Positions 44,721 to 53,307 of a DNA stretch of 64,000 nucleotides are shown one piece after another; positions within the stretch are counted from its first letter, which is position 1; each line of letters begins with the position of its first letter. Below the pieces are notes generated by a model. The model made no database searches. It had not been told where the DNA came from and was given only the letters and a program-made list of their open reading frames with translations. A program made the position numbers and the translations under genes. Source of the DNA: Peribacillus frigoritolerans (lineage in GTDB: Bacteria; Bacillota; Bacilli; Bacillales; DSM-1321); the NCBI RefSeq assembly GCF_001636405.1, contig NZ_KV440950.1, positions 5,001-69,000 on the forward strand. The letters run 5' to 3'.

Positions 44721-45611
44721 TCATTTAGTTCCCGGGACGAATAGACGAAGATGTTTATGCAGTACATCTGCCTGGAAAGGAAGAAGAGTGCCTTCATCGC
44801 CATCGATATTGACTGCAAGTTCCTCTGACGTGTTTAAATGGAGCTTGGATGTTTTAATATATTCGACTTCGTCATTCCCCATGATCTCCCCCCTGATCAA
44901 GCTGGGAATGATCTTGACGATGAGAGGAAGAGATAAATCCTTAATGATGAATGTGTGCAGCTTTCCATCATTCACTTCCGCCTCTGGTGCAAGTTGTTCA
45001 AAACCGCCGACAGAGTTAGTCATGGTTGCAATTAGTAAATGAGCCTCCCCCATCCACTTCCCGTGATCATGTTCAACCGTTAAAGGAAACGGAGTCTTTT
45101 TAATGATCGCTTTTGCTCCTTCAATGAAATAGGCAAAAGACCCAAGACGGGTTTTTTGTTCAACGGAAACATTATAGGTGGCCTCCGCGATTGCCCCTAC
45201 CGCCAACACATTCATGAAGTAACGGTCATTGATCTTCCCTATGTCCGATTCCTTAATATGCATATCCTTCAATATCTCGATGGCTGAATTGGGATTCAGT
45301 GGTATACCCAAAGACCTGGCGAAATCATTGATGGTTCCTAGTGGAATGATCCCGAAGATAGGCCGATGCTGCTGCTCGCCCAAGCCATTCACTATCTCGT
45401 TCACCGTTCCATCACCACCCATGGAAATGACAGCATCGAATCTTTCTGCACAGGCCTCCTTTGCAAACCCCGTCGCATCCCCCTCTCCTTCCGTTTTACG
45501 AACGCATACCTCATCAAAAATTTCGCCAAGTGCCTTTTCCGCTTTCGGCAAAATCTTCCCTGCCTTTTCCTTGCCTGAAGATGGATTGACGATAATCATC
45601 GCTTTCGACAT
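44721..45611 (-). CDS. Diacylglycerol/lipid kinase (BmrU/YegS type)
   Basis: 296 residues. N-terminal MIIVNPSSGKEKAGKIL and the catalytic loop ISMGGDGTVNEIVNGL (about 65-80), then FGIIPLGTINDFARSLG. These mark the DAGK_cat family, which phosphorylates lipids with ATP. Closest in length and motifs to B. subtilis BmrU. DgkB, the essential diacylglycerol kinase, is a related alternative. ATG follows TGGGAGGTAGCAT. Confidence 0.88.
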   Translation of the reverse strand: MSKAMIIVNPSSGKEKAGKILPKAEKALGEIFDEVCVRKTEGEGDATGFAKEACAERFDAVISMGGDGTVNEIVNGLGEQQHRPIFGIIPLGTINDFARSLGIPLNPNSAIEILKDMHIKESDIGKINDRYFMNVLAVGAIAEATYNVSVEQKTRLGSFAYFIEGAKAIIKKTPFPLTVEHDHGKWMGEAHLLIATMTNSVGGFEQLAPEAEVNDGKLHTFIIKDLSLPLIVKIIPSLIRGEIMGNDEVEYIKTSKLHLNTSEELAVNIDGDEGTLLPFQADVLHKHLRLFVPGTK

Positions 45612-46092
45612 ATGCTACCTCCCATTATTGTACTTCTACTAGCAAGTTACCTCTTTACTGAAGTATTAAAACCATACAGACAGGAACTTACATATAAATC
45701 TCTGCCGTTTGGATATTGCTGACATTTTAGAACAAGCACTTTTATGTTACATAGACTGTGAAACAGGCATTCAATGTTCACCCAACCTCCTGTTTCCCAT
45801 CTGTTATATTAATGCCCCACTCAACACATTGAAAATTGTTTGTCCGTTTCACTCCCTGATTGTTTTTTCGTTTTATAAAAAGCATTATTTCTTTCATTTT
45901 CTACTTGCCGTGAAGAAAAATAAAAAAATATACAGATGATAAATCCCTTGCCAATAGGGTTTTCACACTATGGGTGAAAAAAATTTCAAATTTTCTGTAA
46001 AATACCTATACATTTTCCAGATTCGGGTATATACTGTATTATAACAACAAGCAAACAACAAAAACTGTACTATAAATAGGGGGGAGCGAGAC
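45612..46092 (+). promoter_or_regulatory. Long leader/promoter region of the YhfH array
   Basis: 480 bp without a gene. A hairpin AAATCCCT/AGGGTTT (45945-45963) and a neighbouring repeat TTTTCAC/GTGAAAA are visible. A candidate sigma-A promoter TTTCCA, 17 nt, TATTAT lies about 45 nt before the first YhfH gene. I recognise no riboswitch. Confidence 0.4.
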
Positions 46093-46227
46093 ATGCAAGC
46101 AAATCAATCAGATTTACTCATAATCGATTCATTTAAACATTGCCCGGAATGTGGTGAAACACATGTGGACCATTCAAATTCCTATCTGATGGAATGCGAT
46201 CGCTGCCTTTCCAAACGTGAAGAATAA
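46093..46227 (+). CDS. YhfH-type zinc ribbon protein 1
   Basis: 44 residues: two Cys pairs in FKHCPECGETHVDH and YLMECDRCLSKREE, spaced to form one zinc site, as in B. subtilis YhfH. A GGGGGGAGCGAG site lies before the ATG. The N-terminus (MQANQSDLLIIDS) differs from copies 2-5, so it is the oldest or most diverged member. The function of the family is unknown. Confidence 0.8.
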   Translation: MQANQSDLLIIDSFKHCPECGETHVDHSNSYLMECDRCLSKREE

Positions 46228-46270
46228 AGCGGCCGGAAAATATATCTAACATTAAAAGGAGGAAATCATC

Positions 46271-46408
46271 ATGCAAATGAAAAAATCCATTGAGTTTTTT
46301 AACAATATCCCTGCTAAACATTGCCCTGAGTGCGGTGACCATATTATCGAGCATGCTGAATCCTACTTAATGGAATGTGACCGCTGCCTTTCCAGACGCG
46401 AAGACTGA
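46271..46408 (+). CDS. YhfH-type zinc ribbon protein 2
   Basis: 45 residues starting MQMKKSIEFFNNIPAKHCPE, with C-pairs CPECG and CDRCL. AAAGGAGGAAATCATC lies before the ATG. It begins 178 nt after copy 1 and has the ESYLMECDRCLS block shared by the array. The N-terminal EFF-x-IP-x-K shape matches YhfH. See the array finding. Confidence 0.82.
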   Translation: MQMKKSIEFFNNIPAKHCPECGDHIIEHAESYLMECDRCLSRRED

Positions 46409-46437
46409 TTAAACCAAATCAAAAAGGAGGAACCATC

Positions 46438-46575
46438 ATGCAAACTATAAATCCACTGGAATTCTTCAGGACACTGCCGCCTAAACAATGTACGGAGTGC
46501 GGAACCCATATCACTGAACAAGCTGAATCTTACTTGATGGAATGTGACCACTGCCTTTCCAAACGCGAAGACTGA
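46438..46575 (+). CDS. YhfH-type zinc ribbon protein 3
   Basis: 45 residues starting MQTINPLEFFRTLPPKQCTE. The second Cys pair reads CDHCL, with His in place of Arg. It has its own AAAAAGGAGG site. From here on copies 3-5 share NPLEFFRTLPPKQC, so they arose by recent tandem duplication. Confidence 0.82.
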   Translation: MQTINPLEFFRTLPPKQCTECGTHITEQAESYLMECDHCLSKRED

Positions 46576-46600
46576 AACCAAATCATAAGGAGGAATCATC

Positions 46601-46738
46601 ATGCAAACCAAAAACCCACTGGAATTCTTCAGGACACTGCCGCCTAAACAATGTTCGGAATGCGGGACCCATATCATTGAACAAGCTGAATCCTATCTCT
46701 TGGAATGTGACCGCTGCCTCTCCAAACACGAAGACTGA
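46601..46738 (+). CDS. YhfH-type zinc ribbon protein 4
   Basis: 45 residues starting MQTKNPLEFFRTLPPKQCSE, ending CLSKHED. It is nearly the same at DNA level as copy 5, including the ATAAGGAGGAATCA site. It begins 163 nt after copy 3. Confidence 0.82.
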   Translation: MQTKNPLEFFRTLPPKQCSECGTHIIEQAESYLLECDRCLSKHED

Positions 46739-46766
46739 TCAAACCAAATCATAAGGAGGAATCACC

Positions 46767-46907
46767 ATGCAAACCAAAAACCCATTGGAATTCTTCAGGA
46801 CACTGCCGCCTAAACAATGTTCGGAATGCGGGACCCATATCATTGAACAAGCTGAATCCTACCTCTTGGAATGTGACCGCTGCCTTTCCAAAAAAGATGA
46901 ATATTAA
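46767..46907 (+). CDS. YhfH-type zinc ribbon protein 5
   Basis: 46 residues. It differs from copy 4 only after LSK, where it reads KDEY. It is the last gene of the array and is followed by an inverted repeat at 46914-46957. Confidence 0.82.
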   Translation: MQTKNPLEFFRTLPPKQCSECGTHIIEQAESYLLECDRCLSKKDEY

Positions 46908-46913
46908 TAAAAG

Positions 46914-46957
46914 ATGCTGACATCAAGGAGCTATATAGGCCATTTTGATGTCAGCAT
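46914..46957 (+). terminator. Inverted repeat closing the YhfH array
   Basis: ATGCTGACATCAA and TTGATGTCAGCAT around 18 nt. There is no U run, so it is a weak or processing hairpin. Confidence 0.5.
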
Positions 46958-46995
46958 TAACCTTGTTATCTGCCTCCCTTTCCTTGCATTCAAAA

Positions 46996-47034: not shown

Positions 47035-48669
47035 TCATCTCCCAATATATTTATCTACATACTTCCCGCTGATCTTCCTGCTGCTGTATTGTAAGAAGTC
47101 CAATGCAAAAATCATGAATTCAAGGCCCAGACGCTTATCGGAACGCATAAAATCAGAACCTAGCAGTTTCTCCAATTTTTCAAGCCTATGATATAACGTT
47201 TGCCGGACAATGAATAATTGTTTTGATGTTTCCTGTTTAGAACCGTTACAGGCAAGGTATGTCTTCAGGGTAGGCATTAGCTCTCCATTGTTTTGCTTGT
47301 CGTATTCAATGACAGGACCTAAATATTCATATACCGTTTCCTCCAGATTGCCATGTTTATTTATGAGTGAAATCATGCGATGCATATGTAAGTCCTGATA
47401 AAAGAAGCTCCTGTCATCCTCTGGTAATGTATCCTGAAGCAGCAACGTCTCACGGGCCGTTTCATAGCTTTTATAAATCTCACTTAACCTTTGAACATGC
47501 TTACCAAAACCAATGGAAAGCAGCCCCATACGATTACGCCCGCTTACATCCATTTTCATGATTCGATCCACCGCGCTTGTAACCCTTGATTTCCAATCTT
47601 CGGATGAACGATTATCACCTAAAATAAAAACAAGATGCTGATGTATTTCCATGGAAAATATCTGAAAGCCGTACTGTTCAAAAACAGTTCTAAACATTAT
47701 CTTAAAATAGGTTCCATCTAATTTTGCGGAATTTTTATTATACTTTGGGTGTTGTTTGCAAATGCAAACAATTCCGCCATCCAACTGCATTTTCGGATCA
47801 ATATAGGAAAGCCTTTCCCGGATTGCTTCGTCACTATATTCACCTTCAATCCAATTTGTAAGCCATATACTTTCTTCCGACATTTTCTTTTCTTCTATAT
47901 ATAACTCCCTTAATAGATGCTGTGCCAATGCGGTAGCCGTTCGATCCAAGATCAATGAATCAAAATCAGTCAACTCCCTGCCGTTGCTGCTGATGAGCAG
48001 TTCCGCATAATTTTCGCCAAGCACTTGTATCGGCTGTCCAAGAACGGTTTTATCCAATTTCCGCTTCTCTTCATATATATCCGCTACCATTTGATAGGTT
48101 GTTTTTTTCTTTATTTTTGGAATGCTGGCTATATCATTTTCATTAAAGATAAGAATAACCTGTACATTTAAATAGCTGTGGAGAAATTTTAGAATTGGTT
48201 CATAATGGTCAATTTCGAGGAGATTTTTATTTAACTGCTGTGAGTAGTTTTCTAAGTTGGAGATCATCTGATATTGTTTATTGATGATAAGGGAATGTAT
48301 ATCCTGCGTGATTTCCACGAAAGGGACTTCTTCATGAAATAGGATGATAGGGAATTGCCGTTCATTAGCGAGATCGATGGCACATTGCGGCACTGCCATG
48401 GTGTTGGCGCCAATCTCTATACAGAGTCCAGCTGCATCGCACTCTATTAACTGTCTTAAGCAGGATAGAAATGTGTCATCGCAGTCTTTCCACCCTAAAC
48501 CGGTAGTCAGTATCAGTTCGTTTCCATTTAACAAATGGCTGATTTGCGTGACTTCCATGCAGTGGACCCACTTCACTTGACGCTTTATCCCACTGCTGCC
48601 TGCAATTATATCCGTCAGATTAAAATGCTTGCGTGTTAGAATTTCCTCGATTGTAATCGATGTATTCAT
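47035..48669 (-). CDS. pucR: PucR family transcriptional regulator
   Basis: 544 residues. The N-terminal PucR ligand domain (about 1-125) starts with TIEEILTRKHFN and has VHCMEVTQISHLLNGNELIL. A GGDEF-like central region (about 280-400) and a C-terminal HTH_30 (about 475-530) with LKTYLACNGSKQETSKQL and RQTLYHRLEKLEKLLG follow. B. subtilis PucR controls purine catabolism. Here it lies downstream of the pyrimidine degradation operon on the same strand and probably activates it in response to nitrogen or a pathway intermediate. Confidence 0.86.
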   Translation of the reverse strand: MNTSITIEEILTRKHFNLTDIIAGSSGIKRQVKWVHCMEVTQISHLLNGNELILTTGLGWKDCDDTFLSCLRQLIECDAAGLCIEIGANTMAVPQCAIDLANERQFPIILFHEEVPFVEITQDIHSLIINKQYQMISNLENYSQQLNKNLLEIDHYEPILKFLHSYLNVQVILIFNENDIASIPKIKKKTTYQMVADIYEEKRKLDKTVLGQPIQVLGENYAELLISSNGRELTDFDSLILDRTATALAQHLLRELYIEEKKMSEESIWLTNWIEGEYSDEAIRERLSYIDPKMQLDGGIVCICKQHPKYNKNSAKLDGTYFKIMFRTVFEQYGFQIFSMEIHQHLVFILGDNRSSEDWKSRVTSAVDRIMKMDVSGRNRMGLLSIGFGKHVQRLSEIYKSYETARETLLLQDTLPEDDRSFFYQDLHMHRMISLINKHGNLEETVYEYLGPVIEYDKQNNGELMPTLKTYLACNGSKQETSKQLFIVRQTLYHRLEKLEKLLGSDFMRSDKRLGLEFMIFALDFLQYSSRKISGKYVDKYIGR

Positions 48670-48787
48670 CCAGCCACATCCTTTTATAAAACTGCTTTAA
48701 AATCTATTATAAACGGACACCCCTTAAATCTCCAGACACTTGTCAGAAAATCTAACGTCAAAATTCTACAAAAAACTCAAACAAAAA

Positions 48788-48812
48788 GGACCCATTCGTG
48801 AGGAATAGGCCC
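48788..48812 (-). terminator. Terminator of the pyrimidine degradation operon
   Basis: GGGCCTATTC pairs with GAATGGGTCC (two G-U), then TTTTTG on the minus strand, 15 nt past the last gene. Confidence 0.68.
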
Positions 48813-48826
48813 GGTCCGTAACTTAC

Positions 48827-49045
48827 TCAATTCAACTTTTTTTTGAAAAGCAATGTAGAGAAGTATTTCCTACCTTCCGGGGTTTTGATGTTCAACTGCT
48901 TCCATTCCTGCTTCGTTCCTTCAATCAGTTCAAAATCGAGAAAAGCTCCACTTAAACTTTCGGAAACCCGGGTGATTCGATATCCTCTTTCAAGCAAAAA
49001 ATCGATTTGTTCCCTTTCTAAGCGATACTCTTGATATTCGGACAT
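48827..49045 (-). CDS. Small conserved-looking protein in the pyrimidine operon
   Basis: 72 residues, charged, starting MSEYQEYRLEREQIDFLLER and containing KTPEGRKYFSTLLFKKK. ATG 49045 is placed after AAGGGGG at seven nt. It lies 16 nt behind the permease gene and ends at the operon terminator, so it is co-transcribed. I do not recognise the family; no motif suggests an activity. Confidence 0.65.
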   Translation of the reverse strand: MSEYQEYRLEREQIDFLLERGYRITRVSESLSGAFLDFELIEGTKQEWKQLNIKTPEGRKYFSTLLFKKKLN

Positions 49046-49061
49046 TTCCATTCCCCCTTTT

Positions 49062-50546
49062 TCAAACGTTCTTCTTGCCGGTCGAAGCCGTAAAAACCAC
49101 CTCTACCTCAAGTTCTGGACCTTTTTCAATTATCCAATCCCTTCCAACTGAAATACCTAAATATTTCTCATCGCTTGGATCGATGATTTCAGCTTGTTCA
49201 TATCGCTTGAACCACCAATACTTAGCTAATATAAAATAACAAGCACCGCCGAGTAGAAAACCGATAATAAACGAATAATTTGAAAAAATCGTGGCACCGA
49301 TTCCTCCAATCACCCAAGAAATGATTCCTGCCCAATTCACTCCATTCAAGTACTTATACTGGCCTTCACTCTCATAGAGTTCTTGTACATTCACTCTCCG
49401 TTTACGAAGGAAATAGTAATCCGCTACCAGGATGCCGACAATGGATGCCAGGATTCCACCTATTATTAATAAAACTTCTATGATGATGCCGAACAGGCTC
49501 CATGGCTGAACTACTATCCCAATAACCCCCGCTACAACGACTCCCGCCCAAAATGGCATTTTAGGACCCATGACATTGGAGAAAATGGTAGCTGCGGGAA
49601 TGACATTGGCCGTAGTATTCGTCGACCATTGAGCAAATACGATCATGATCAAAAGGACGCCGAGGGCAATTCCACTTGCTGATCCCTGTATGGCAACTAC
49701 AGGGTCATAATTGGAAACAGCCATATAAGAAACCGCTCCGATAATCACCATGAACGTCTGGGTGATGGGATAGGTGATAATATTCCCAATTATTTGCCCC
49801 TTATTGCGCTTGAACCAATTTTTTTCATTTTTTGGTGCCTTTATATAGCGGGAAAGCGTCGGCATATCTGCAGTCAATGTGCCCCAAAATCCCATATTTG
49901 CCATAATGACGACCATGAAAGCCGTCGCGGCGGCCCCGCCAGTGACCGGACTTTCAATCCAGGACCATACCTCCCTTCCTTGGGCCACAGCCTGATCGGA
50001 TAGGGTGAAATACATCCATCCAGAAATTAGAATGATGACGGGCGCCGCCAAGTCGGCGAATCGTTCAATCGACTTTATTCCCATTGCCGTGTTGACTAAT
50101 TGTAAAACGGCAAAAATGAGGAAGCAGATAAACCAATTATCAAAGTCAAAAAGAGTTGTAAAGATAGCATTCATTGCAGTGGCTCCAAAGTAAGTATTGA
50201 GGCCGAACCAGCATGACGCTACAAAACCGCGCACAACCGAAGGGATGTGGGTGCCAATCGTACCGAACGGCGCCCTCATATAGACTGGAAATGATATTCC
50301 ATGTTCAACACCGATATCCCCTGTCATTGTCATCAAAAAGCCGAGAACCACACAGGCAATGACCGTTGCAAGAACGACCCAGCCTAAGGATAAACTTTGA
50401 ACACCGTTCCCACCGATCGCGAAGGCAGCCAATACTACAGCCATGCCCACCCAAATGAAACCAAATCCGGCTGCACTTATGTTTTTCTCACTATGAGGTA
50501 TAGGCAGCAAATCGGGAGACTTTAAATAATCTTTCTTCTCACTCAT
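49062..50546 (-). CDS. NCS1 family nucleobase permease
   Basis: 494 residues and about 12 helices. Motifs of nucleobase:cation symport-1 proteins are present: SLSLGWVVLAT near the N-terminus and MANMGFWGTLTADMPTLSRY in TM6. The location between hydA and a small gene suggests uptake of uracil, thymine, dihydropyrimidine or hydantoin. It resembles bacterial PucI/HyuP-type carriers. ATG follows TTAGGGGGATTTTT. Confidence 0.88.
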   Translation of the reverse strand: MSEKKDYLKSPDLLPIPHSEKNISAAGFGFIWVGMAVVLAAFAIGGNGVQSLSLGWVVLATVIACVVLGFLMTMTGDIGVEHGISFPVYMRAPFGTIGTHIPSVVRGFVASCWFGLNTYFGATAMNAIFTTLFDFDNWFICFLIFAVLQLVNTAMGIKSIERFADLAAPVIILISGWMYFTLSDQAVAQGREVWSWIESPVTGGAAATAFMVVIMANMGFWGTLTADMPTLSRYIKAPKNEKNWFKRNKGQIIGNIITYPITQTFMVIIGAVSYMAVSNYDPVVAIQGSASGIALGVLLIMIVFAQWSTNTTANVIPAATIFSNVMGPKMPFWAGVVVAGVIGIVVQPWSLFGIIIEVLLIIGGILASIVGILVADYYFLRKRRVNVQELYESEGQYKYLNGVNWAGIISWVIGGIGATIFSNYSFIIGFLLGGACYFILAKYWWFKRYEQAEIIDPSDEKYLGISVGRDWIIEKGPELEVEVVFTASTGKKNV

Positions 50547-50587
50547 AAAAATCCCCCTAATTTAATTTGCAAGATTCCTTACCGAAG

Positions 50588-52006
50588 TTAGACTGTAAGC
50601 TTTTTCCCGGTATCCGGCTTCAACGCCGAATTATATTTTGCCCGTTTCAAGAATTGTCCTTTTCCAGCTTCGCCCACAAATTGTTTGTCTTTAATGACGA
50701 ATTGACCTCTCGATAAAACGGAAACCGGCTCACCCGTAATTTCCATACCCTCAAACGCATTATAATCCACCGCCATGTGATGAGTATCTGCAGAAATGGC
50801 CCTTTCAATCCTCGGGTCAAAAATGACAATATCAGCATCCGAGCCTACGGCAATCGTCCCTTTCTTAGGGAATAATCCAAATAGTTTGGCAGCACGTGTA
50901 GAGGTCATGTCGACGAATTGATTCAAAGTAATGCGCTCTTTCATGACCCCTTCAGAAAAGAGGATACTCATGCGGTCCTCTATCGTTGGGCCGCCGTTCG
51001 GTATTTTCGTGAAATCTTCACGTCCAAGTTCCTTCTGTCCCTTAAAGTCAAAAGAGCATTGATCGGAGCCGATCGTTTGCAGCTGCCCCATTTTCAGAGC
51101 ATTCCATAGCACTTCCTGGTTTTTCTTCTCCCTTAACGGCGGGGACCATACATACTTAGATCCTTCAAAATGGGGCTTTTCAAGATAAGACTGGTCAAGA
51201 ACCAAATATTGCGGACAAGTCTCACCCCAAATATCCACCCCTTTATTCCTTGCCTCAGTGATCTTTTCAACCGCATCTTCACAGGTGACATGAACGACAT
51301 AGAGCTGGCCATTTGCCATTTCCGTCAGTTTAGCTGCACGTCCAGTTGCTTCCCCTTCAAGCTCCGGAGGCCTTGTTAATGCATGGTAAATTGGATCGGT
51401 GTTCCCTTCGGCAAGCGCCTGCTTTGTAAGATAATCGATGACATCACCATTTTCAGCATGAACCATGACAAGTGCGCCAAGTTCCTTTGCTTGCAACAAA
51501 GTGCGGTATAGCGTGGCATCATCAGCTTGAAAAACATTCTTGTAAGCCATGAATACTTTAAAGGACGAAATCCCTTCATTATCGATGATACTTGGCAACT
51601 CAGCCAATACTTCATCATTAATCTCACTGATCATTAAATGAAAACCATAGTCTATGGCCGCTTTTTCATTGGCCTTTTCATGCCATGTTTCAATTGCTTT
51701 CTTTAAAGGCACCCCTTTTTCGGTCAGGCAAAAATCGATGATCGTTGTCGTGCCTCCATATGCAGCAGCGATTGTACCTGTTTCATAATCATCCTTTGTC
51801 GTTGTCCCGCCAAACGGCATATCGAGATGGGTATGCGGATCTATGCCCCCCGGAAAAATATATGCGCCTTTTGCATCAATGATTTCAGCCCCCTCAGCCG
51901 ACAGGTCCTTTCCAATCATTGCAATCTTCTCATTTTCAATCAATATATCCGCTTGATACGTATCTGCAGCCGTTGCAATCGTTCCATTTTTAATGATTTT
52001 CTTCAT
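50588..52006 (-). CDS. hydA: Dihydropyrimidinase (D-hydantoinase)
   Basis: 472 residues, amidohydrolase fold. The metal site GGIDPHTHLDMPFGG is near residue 55, the carboxylated Lys lies in SFKVFMAYK, and the later site Asp in IGSDQCSF. It opens dihydrouracil or dihydrothymine to N-carbamoyl-beta-alanine or its methyl analogue. I chose ATG 52006, after GGAGGGGTCGAAT; the frame upstream lies inside that site. It lies 14 nt after preA. Confidence 0.93.
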   Translation of the reverse strand: MKKIIKNGTIATAADTYQADILIENEKIAMIGKDLSAEGAEIIDAKGAYIFPGGIDPHTHLDMPFGGTTTKDDYETGTIAAAYGGTTTIIDFCLTEKGVPLKKAIETWHEKANEKAAIDYGFHLMISEINDEVLAELPSIIDNEGISSFKVFMAYKNVFQADDATLYRTLLQAKELGALVMVHAENGDVIDYLTKQALAEGNTDPIYHALTRPPELEGEATGRAAKLTEMANGQLYVVHVTCEDAVEKITEARNKGVDIWGETCPQYLVLDQSYLEKPHFEGSKYVWSPPLREKKNQEVLWNALKMGQLQTIGSDQCSFDFKGQKELGREDFTKIPNGGPTIEDRMSILFSEGVMKERITLNQFVDMTSTRAAKLFGLFPKKGTIAVGSDADIVIFDPRIERAISADTHHMAVDYNAFEGMEITGEPVSVLSRGQFVIKDKQFVGEAGKGQFLKRAKYNSALKPDTGKKLTV

Positions 52007-52020
52007 ATTCGACCCCTCCA

Positions 52021-53307
52021 TCATTTTACGAAATCAACACTTTCACTGCTTATGCCCCCAAGGAACGATTGGCGTTCATTCCACGTCATTGGCGGCAATT
52101 CATTTGTCAATTCGATCATATCGATCGCCCCATCGGCCGGACAGACGATCGAGCAAAGATTACAGCCTACGCAATCCTCTTCGCGCACTCTCAAGAATGA
52201 GCTGCCTGACGTGTCCTTTAACATATCTATACATTGATGCGATGTATCTTCACACGCAATATGGCATTTATTGCAGTTAATGCACACATCATTATTAATG
52301 CGCGCAACGACCTTATAATTAAGATCTAAGTTCCCCCAGTCGGAATAGCGAGGTACGGACTTACCGACAATATCCATCACGGAGGATATCCCTTTTTCAT
52401 CAAGATAATTGGACAGGCCATCGATCAAGTCTTCAACGATTCTAAAACCGTGATGCATGGCAGCCGTGCAAATTTGCACTCCAGTCGAACCCATCAGCAA
52501 AAATTCCACCGTATCCTGCCAATTTGAAATGCCGCCAATTCCCGAAATGGGAACATTGATCATTTTATTCCTTGCACACTCTGCCACCATATTCAAAGCA
52601 ATCGGCTTCACAGCTGGACCGCAATACCCTCCGTGAGCACCCTTGCCGCCTACATGGGGAATCGTATTCCATGAATGGATATCCACTCCTGCCAAGCTGT
52701 TGATCGTATTGATCATGCTTATTGCATCCGCACCGCCGCGCACCGCCGCTTCAGCCGTAACCGTAATGTCGGTTATATTGGGTGTAAGCTTGACGATGAC
52801 GGGCTTGGATGCAGCTTCCTTCGCCCAGTATGTTTGCTTTTCAACCAGTTCTGGAACCTGTCCCGAAGCAGCTCCCATCCCACGCTCTGCCATACCGTGC
52901 GGGCAGCCAAAGTTCAACTCGTAACCATCGACCCCTACATCTTCTATGCGCTTGATGATCTCATGCCACTTTTCCTGTTGTGGCTCCACCATCACCGATG
53001 CAATGATTGCGTGATCAGGGAACCTCTTCTTCGTTTCATATATTTCCTTCAGATTCACTTCCAGCGGACGGTCCGTTATCAATTCTATATTGTTGAACCC
53101 GGCAACTCTTTGTCCATTAAAACTGACCGCTGCAAAACGTGATGAGACATTCAGGATGGGGTCACCCAATGTCTTCCAAACGGCTCCTCCCCAGCCAGCT
53201 TCAAATGCACGCTGAACTTGATAACCCGAATTAGTAGGTGGTGCTGAAGCAAGCCAAAAAGGATTGGGAGATTTAATACCTGCAAGATCAATTGATAAAT
53301 CAGCCAT
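52021..53307 (-). CDS. preA: Dihydropyrimidine dehydrogenase subunit PreA
   Basis: 428 residues. An FMN TIM-barrel dihydroorotate dehydrogenase-like domain (about 1-310) starts ADLSIDLAGIKSPNPFWLAS and contains NFGCPHGMAERG with the active Cys. Two C-terminal [4Fe-4S] sites are CINCNKCHIAC and CVGCNLCSIVCP. It reduces uracil and thymine with electrons from PreT. I chose ATG 53307, after TAGGAGGCTTATC; the longer frame overlaps this site. Confidence 0.94.
   Translation of the reverse strand: MADLSIDLAGIKSPNPFWLASAPPTNSGYQVQRAFEAGWGGAVWKTLGDPILNVSSRFAAVSFNGQRVAGFNNIELITDRPLEVNLKEIYETKKRFPDHAIIASVMVEPQQEKWHEIIKRIEDVGVDGYELNFGCPHGMAERGMGAASGQVPELVEKQTYWAKEAASKPVIVKLTPNITDITVTAEAAVRGGADAISMINTINSLAGVDIHSWNTIPHVGGKGAHGGYCGPAVKPIALNMVAECARNKMINVPISGIGGISNWQDTVEFLLMGSTGVQICTAAMHHGFRIVEDLIDGLSNYLDEKGISSVMDIVGKSVPRYSDWGNLDLNYKVVARINNDVCINCNKCHIACEDTSHQCIDMLKDTSGSSFLRVREEDCVGCNLCSIVCPADGAIDMIELTNELPPMTWNERQSFLGGISSESVDFVK

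Follow-up and report, generated by a model that had tools for sequence, protein, structure and literature searches.

The presence of five tandem genes for one small cysteine-containing protein in the genome of Peribacillus frigoritolerans (5.46 Mb, 2 contigs) raises the questions of what the protein does, with which part of the metabolism its expression is coupled, and whether its multiplication has any functional significance. The genes lie in a stretch of 64,000 nucleotides, here termed the window, and belong to the YhfH family (PF14149, profile cut-off 27 bits). The array and its surroundings comprise the following features:

44721-45611, minus strand: diacylglycerol-kinase-like gene, divergent neighbour, outside the array
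46093-46227, plus strand: YhfH copy 1, head type A, 44 aa with a divergent N-terminus, 27.5 bits
46271-46408, plus strand: YhfH copy 2, type B, 45 aa, 63.1 bits
46438-46575, plus strand: YhfH copy 3, tail type C, 45 aa, 70.3 bits
46601-46738, plus strand: YhfH copy 4, tail type C, 45 aa, 68.6 bits
46767-46907, plus strand: YhfH copy 5, last tail copy, 46 aa, 68.6 bits
46913-46958: terminator-like hairpin with a 16-pair outer stem, -24.2 kcal/mol, z -6.9
47035-48669, minus strand: PucR-type regulator, convergent neighbour, outside the array

An initial annotation had described 46093-46907 as five YhfH genes with their own ribosome sites, and the open reading frames, the G-rich Shine-Dalgarno sequence ahead of the ATG in each gene and the PF14149 scores agree with this description. 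Successive genes start 178, 167, 163 and 166 bp apart. All five copies are members of PF14149, with copy 1 a borderline case that barely passes at 27.5 bits against the cut-off of 27 and that falls below it, at 26.3 bits, in a genome-wide profile search. The latter search also recovered a sixth, solitary YhfH of the same genome (G000:C1:4467044, 74.6 bits) and a match in the B. subtilis control genome, to which the initial annotation had assigned a single yhfH. The further statements that the N-terminus varies in copy 1 while the four-cysteine core is fixed, and that copies 4 and 5 are nearly identical together with their leaders, were likewise borne out: CxECG and ECDxCLS are present in all copies, and copies 4 and 5 share 128 of 135 bases in the coding part and 19 of 20 in the leader (120 of 135 and 15 of 20 for copies 3 and 4). 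The array genes thus resemble B. subtilis yhfH (PF14149) in Pfam family, length and the two CxxC pairs, and differ from it in forming an array of five copies with a divergent head; the solitary YhfH, of the 'HECYG' type, has a gene of its own elsewhere in this genome.

The region upstream of copy 1 contains a set of conserved elements that might account for the expression of the whole array:

45980-46006, plus strand: UP-element-like A/T-rich stretch, from conservation in 98 unique upstream regions and the genus alignment
45995-46045, plus strand: 51-bp promoter block, near-invariant in 21 aligned genus array loci
46007-46012, plus strand: -35 element TATACA (family consensus TAYACA), 17 bp ahead of the -10 element
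46030-46035, plus strand: -10 element TATACT, conserved across 102 loci
46034-46044, plus strand: box 1, CTGTATTATAA, covering the -10/start region
46065-46075, plus strand: box 2, CTGTACTATAA, abutting the first ribosome site, with its start 31 bp beyond that of box 1

These elements make up a sigma-A-type promoter with an UP-like element. A survey of them covered several genera with 102 loci (L040-L075 and L095-L159 besides the window, with L080-L094 left out), which represent 98 unique sequences and include some records of one strain from two collections. The best match to the 16-mer TATACTGTAYTAYAAC within 250 bp upstream was exact in 98 of the 102 loci, with one mismatch in 3 and two mismatches in 1. 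The two boxes conform to an 11-bp consensus, YTGTAYTAYAA; they are separated by 30 or 31 bp in 96 of the 102 loci, and box 2 scores 9-11 of 11 in 98 of them, a score of at least 9 being reached by about 2% of shuffles. The conservation of box 1 is inflated by its overlap with the -10 element. A minus-strand promoter behind box 1 was also considered and dropped, position 12 being C in 21 of the 98 regions. The box loosely fits TTGTA-N-TACAA, a palindrome of the GntR (FCD) operator kind, which provides a lead and no test. Consensus sites for Zur, PerR/Fur, CzrA, CodY, cre and CcpN were compared with 45612-46920. This yielded a CodY-like AATTTTCTGTAAAAT at 45989 (45989-46003; 13 of 15), situated in the UP-like stretch before the -35 element and kept in the genus rows, not in other loci; CcpN-like matches of 10 of 11 at 45743 and 45800; and three cre-like matches of 15 of 16 inside coding sequence.

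The only perfect boxes in the window are the two ahead of copy 1. Single weak boxes carry no meaning, because boxes of at least 10 of 11 number 7 in the window versus 5 in its reversed form. Within the genus, 32 of 36 genomes have the twin pattern at their yhfH locus, and it occurs at 1 place elsewhere (3 in the reversed control). The exact 16-mer occurs once per genome searched; in the window's own genome, 14 matches with two mismatches allowed show no excess over the 19 of the reversed control. The twin box or the related 17-mer TATACTGTAYTAYAACA was accordingly rejected as a wider regulon mark in the genus, where there is one twin place per genome with one exception. Since the exact twin is essentially restricted to yhfH in the genus, the case for a shared regulon depends on boxes at pdhA, the gene considered below, that are single or have another spacing. 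Among the solitary yhfH promoters (L001, L007-L039, L077, L078), almost every unique region read contains TTATAATACAA or a variant close to it, and 34 of 34 contain a box of 10 of 11; TTATAATACAA is an extended -10 element and a reversed box at once, and these boxes are weak evidence because nearly all of them coincide with the extended -10.

Across the order, the 17-mer was found in 63 of 397 genomes, once per genome, against 1 in the reversed control. It precedes YhfH, as judged from coordinates or sequence, in 44 of the 47 genomes other than those of family f21, G337 and G165, in a context count that leaves out G334, G338 and G357. Family f21 (15 genomes searched) contributes 14 of the 63 genomes; none of the 15 has a YhfH among the matches listed, four being named as without one and the other eleven being unlisted. 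In all six f21 loci read of the 14, the gene next to the 17-mer encodes a HesB-like protein of 94-95 aa, and the same succession is seen in G337; the two proteins scanned, from one f21 genome and G337, contain PF01521. Inverted box pairs were found in 16 genomes with the HesB-like gene (15 of f21 and G337). In four of these loci (L279-L282, from G337, G241, G062 and G138), the HesB-like gene is followed by a perfect or near-perfect palindrome of the box and then by T's, an arrangement that looks like a terminator. According to PMC10090944, B. subtilis PdhI (YneR) inhibits PDH E1, and its Y31 is situated at the active-site entrance. In the f21 protein, residue 30 is a tyrosine, within FVRYAG, and from family and length we infer that this protein is PdhI. 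The parallel with YhfH is that one lineage places a small HesB-like protein behind the identical 17-bp promoter box; the two differ in domain (PF01521 versus PF14149), and an interaction of YhfH with PDH is putative.

A second association concerns the glyoxylate shunt genes aceB and aceA, with yhfH directly ahead of one or both in L154 (Bacillus paralicheniformis), L230, L232, L233 and L234. The malate synthase and isocitrate lyase calls come from family scans for L154 and L241 and from signatures for the others. A signature scan of all loci gave no further such case except L241/L199, which have the box without yhfH. In L241 (G165), the 17-bp box lies 26 bp ahead of aceB and yhfH is missing from the interval, which would fit its loss from that position.

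The third and most extensive association is with pdhA. Besides yhfH, direct twin boxes were detected order-wide at seven further places, with four genomes of one genus taken as a single case, versus one control match; the five places read are pdhA in two families, ackA once and two without a clear gene. A search for inverted pairs added pdhA in a third family; beyond the HesB-like and pdhA cases, such pairs are at chance level, with 6 genomes versus 6 in the control. We then counted boxes, defined from yhfH alone, upstream of pdhA in 30 genomes, nearly all chosen as carriers of the 17-mer and not at random; G414 and G131, chosen for their pdhA boxes, were dropped, leaving 28. In the upstream ~500 bp, a box of at least 10 of 11 occurs in 24 of the 28 genomes (30 matches; four regions are without one), compared with a mean of 1.24 and a maximum of 4 matches in dinucleotide shuffles of these regions (n=50) and with 3 matches in 48 A/T-rich control windows. 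At 9 of 11, there are 66 matches versus 18 in shuffles, and an earlier count over all 30 genomes and 700 bp had given 38 versus 1 in reversed sequence. The boxes tend towards a common layout: 1) the best box lies 67-108 bp before the -35 element (a promoter was found in 27 of 28); 2) a second box follows 22-23 bp further on in 20 of 28; 3) a third box, in the looser form TWNTARTACAG, lies 39-45 bp after the -10 element in 26 of 27, scoring 10-11 of 11 in 19 of these 26 and 9 in 7. The window's own genome shows this layout, with 10, 10 and 10 of 11. The layout is descriptive and no independent test, because it and the looser form were read off pdhA itself, with the best matches taken in short stretches. 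In two genomes of one genus (G082, G251), yhfH is 3-5 kb from pdhA. According to PMC6504816, glucose induces pdhABCD independently of YlxR, TsaD, CcpA, CcpC, CcpN and CggR, by 'an unknown mechanism'; as none of these six factors is needed, a regulator of pdhABCD may be missing from the current picture. Our literature search found no YhfH array and no link to pdhA boxes in print.

Beyond what is directly established, namely the genes, their conservation and selection, the boxes and the box enrichment at pdhA, we propose the following model. The array would be a single transcription unit that multiplies the dose of the YhfH zinc-ribbon microprotein, with transcription predicted to start at the one sigma-A-type promoter with its UP-like element and to end at the hairpin. 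The two boxes are about three helical turns apart, on about the same face of the DNA, one over the -10/start region and the other at the first ribosome site; a regulator bound to both would be expected to block initiation as well as early elongation, and release of this repression would track pyruvate/acetyl-CoA status. Because the box recurs at pdhA, at the HesB-like gene and, once, at aceB, the most likely reading is that yhfH is switched in step with the pyruvate/acetyl-CoA node, and the boxes shared with pdhA suggest that the YhfH family belongs to central carbon metabolism control. YhfH itself, as a small zinc-ribbon protein, would most likely partner or modulate one of the enzymes at this node. 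We place moderate confidence in this combined reading of the array as a dosage unit of a node-enzyme modulator switched with the node. A narrower version, to which we assign a rather low probability, is that YhfH is a dosage-amplified modulator of PDH or of the branch point, a counterpart of PdhI co-controlled with pdhABCD via YTGTAYTAYAA boxes; the boxes of this proposed pdhA-box regulon are indeed found at the array promoter.

The same promoter could also be read differently, with YhfH as an RNA-polymerase- or ribosome-associated zinc ribbon under a strong UP-element promoter with stringent control through the initiating nucleotide, and the pdhA boxes as shared promoter chemistry. Besides the UP-like element of the array promoter, such a reading draws on a start predicted near AACA and on a weak, non-significant structural likeness of YhfH to ribosomal zinc proteins. 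It also draws, as does the model above, on PMC4495994, in which B. subtilis yhfH is lower at 2 h in the absence of the RNA-polymerase alpha-CTD; at 3 h its log2 change is -4.13 with q 0.201, for which reason it is not in the 3 h list. This effect fits the expectation for an UP-element promoter. On the other hand, this alternative leaves box 2, at 30-31 bp, unexplained, the boxes at pdhA sit away from the pdhA -10 element, and the structural matches have E above 1. We consider it possible yet unlikely.

The protein itself is conserved chiefly in its cysteine knuckles. In an alignment of 100 YhfH sequences (95 of 130 unique copies from the named loci and the five window copies), C18, C21, G22, E35, C36, C39 and L40 are invariant; L063 copy 4 and L066-L068 are exceptions beyond this set. 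The array proteins have two CxxC pairs about 14 residues apart, as is characteristic of PF14149, and these cysteines indicate that YhfH probably binds zinc. The AlphaFold model is of modest quality (pLDDT 73, pTM 0.43, no metal in the model) and comprises a knuckle and two helices, one of them short and the other extending from the second cysteine pair; no significant structural match was obtained, the likeness to ribosomal zinc proteins already mentioned being weak. Matches of YhfH to zinc-ribbon-like profiles remain sub-threshold. In small size, the CPxCG knuckle and such weak profile matches, YhfH recalls the archaeal CPxCG zinc-finger microproteins of the HVO_2753 type, from which it differs in the sub-threshold character of the matches, the host group and the gene arrangement. 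A literature search found no established protein function for the YhfH family. The initial annotation had considered a zinc store, and the four invariant cysteines, the zinc-ribbon-like profile matches and a CzrA-like dyad, TGAANNNNNNTTCA (8 specified bases; full match at 45975), could be quoted for an array that adds zinc sites as a metallothionein-like zinc-stress protein. Yet four cysteines in 44-46 residues are far from the high cysteine content of metallothioneins, the dyad is not kept in all genus rows, and the boxes recur at pdhA; Zur control of the leader, also suggested earlier, found no backing, the best match in 45612-46920 being 13 of 21 to the Zur consensus. With about 4 cysteines per 45 residues and no Zur-like site, a zinc store looks quite improbable; given the CzrA-like dyad, some other control by metal is conceivable.

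The hairpin at 46913-46958 lies after the last copy and before the convergent PucR-type gene. Its arms are recognisable in most of 21 genus rows, a simple terminator scan did not list it, and because few T's follow, it is possibly a two-way terminator. The minus-strand genes at 47035-52024 encode the PucR-type regulator, a permease of the cytosine/purine/allantoin type and an amidohydrolase, and are probably a purine or pyrimidine catabolism cluster. The neighbours of the array in the window are unrelated to pyruvate metabolism; given that they are diacylglycerol-kinase-like and PucR-type, the association of yhfH is with the promoter and not with a fixed neighbourhood. These surroundings bear on the idea that the RNA is the product, as in Bacillus thuringiensis, where, according to PMC10989752, a YhfH RNA of ~500 nt encodes a 42-aa peptide and lowers the stability of the mRNA of the LacI-type gene lipR, to which its 3' part is antisense. 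That system shares with ours the name, the small peptide and, via lipR, a link to glucose metabolism, and differs, by sequence, in that our array is without a LacI-type antisense partner: the gene on the other strand is of PucR type, and the sequence gives no reason to expect an antisense overlap, since the hairpin separates the array from the near end of that gene at 47035. Moreover, flanks vary between the loci listed while protein and promoter are kept, and codon-level purifying selection points to the protein. Hence, we regard a dual-function RNA as improbable here.

Multi-copy YhfH arrays are not peculiar to this locus. YhfH was found in 36 of 36 genus genomes, with 1-8 matches per genome, and reading the array-type locus in the 35 other genus genomes and the window revealed a tandem array of 2-7 copies in 27 of 36 and a single copy in 9 of 36; the 36 include close relatives, so these counts do not represent independent events. 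Among 80 of 172 confirmed stretches, and with copies counted from the loci themselves, arrays were seen in named relatives such as Peribacillus simplex, P. frigoritolerans, P. butanolivorans and P. glennii. Order-wide, with at most 18 candidates scored per genome, 337 of 397 genomes have a match, most of those listed with a match have one copy, and five of the listed genomes outside the window's family have at least three. Neobacillus mesonae MER TA 107 has a tandem array of five copies, Bacillus thermotolerans three tandem copies, and several Neobacillus two or three. Certain loci of the genus deviate from the usual protein: the single YhfH at the array-type promoter in L066, L067 and L068 has CxxCSS in place of ECDxCLS, and that of L067 adjoins genes that by eye read like hflX and a rhodanese-type gene; copy 4 of the L063 (G034) array has CTECS in place of CTECG; and the last copy of the G007 array (L043:4350-4520) has an altered C-terminal tail, with 56 aa, perhaps through a frameshift or sequencing error.

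Sorting of the copies by simple sequence rules into types A, B and C showed that an A head, B and then at least one C follow in this order in 20 of the 27 genus arrays, with A without B in 3 and neither pattern in 4. Between genomes, in 19 arrays with at least four copies and an A head (17 of these with B), type A has a dN/dS of 0.33, type B one of 0.09 and the last copy one of 0.11, and C pairs inside one genome give 0.24. The comparison of copies proposed in the initial annotation thus gave clear purifying selection on A, B and C alike, with values of about 0.09-0.33 and not near 1, type A being the most relaxed. In 5 of the 19 arrays, the C copies of one genome resemble each other more than those of any other genome of the set, clearly so in 4, for instance in P. 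butanolivorans (pS 0.109 within versus 0.495 to other genomes); the fifth case, L054, is nearly even (0.181 versus 0.187). Hence, homogenisation or fresh duplication has operated in some lineages. In the window genome, compared among the same 19 arrays, the three tail copies taken together show no sign of homogenisation (pS 0.228 mutually versus 0.183 to those of the nearest relative). Of the earlier suggestion of a recent expansion or homogenisation, the near-identity of copies 4 and 5 stands; the array is not a recent local event. The head and second copy are distinct paralogues with fixed positions in 20 of 27 arrays, and it is mainly the tail that turns over. In a tree of 71 copies (135 columns, SH-aLRT support only, with many open forks and flagged long branches), the A copies of five Peribacillus arrays cluster (96), and the five N. 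mesonae copies (97) and the three B. thermotolerans copies (98) form their own branches apart from Peribacillus, which indicates that array expansion arose more than once. Selectively neutral tandem drift, to which the spread of 2-7 copies, the single-copy loci and the independent expansions in other Bacillaceae might be attributed, is very doubtful in view of the low dN/dS, the A-B-C order, the similar spacing and the conserved last copy.

Arrays of this kind, with a fixed head and a variable tail, represent a natural dosage experiment with a multi-copy microprotein. If the co-control with pdhABCD outlined above is true, the YTGTAYTAYAA boxes would be the missing operator for the CcpA-independent glucose control of pdhABCD, and the boxes common to yhfH and pdhA offer a testable candidate for the mechanism that PMC6504816 calls unknown. 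The widespread YhfH family would thereby gain a concrete physiological address.
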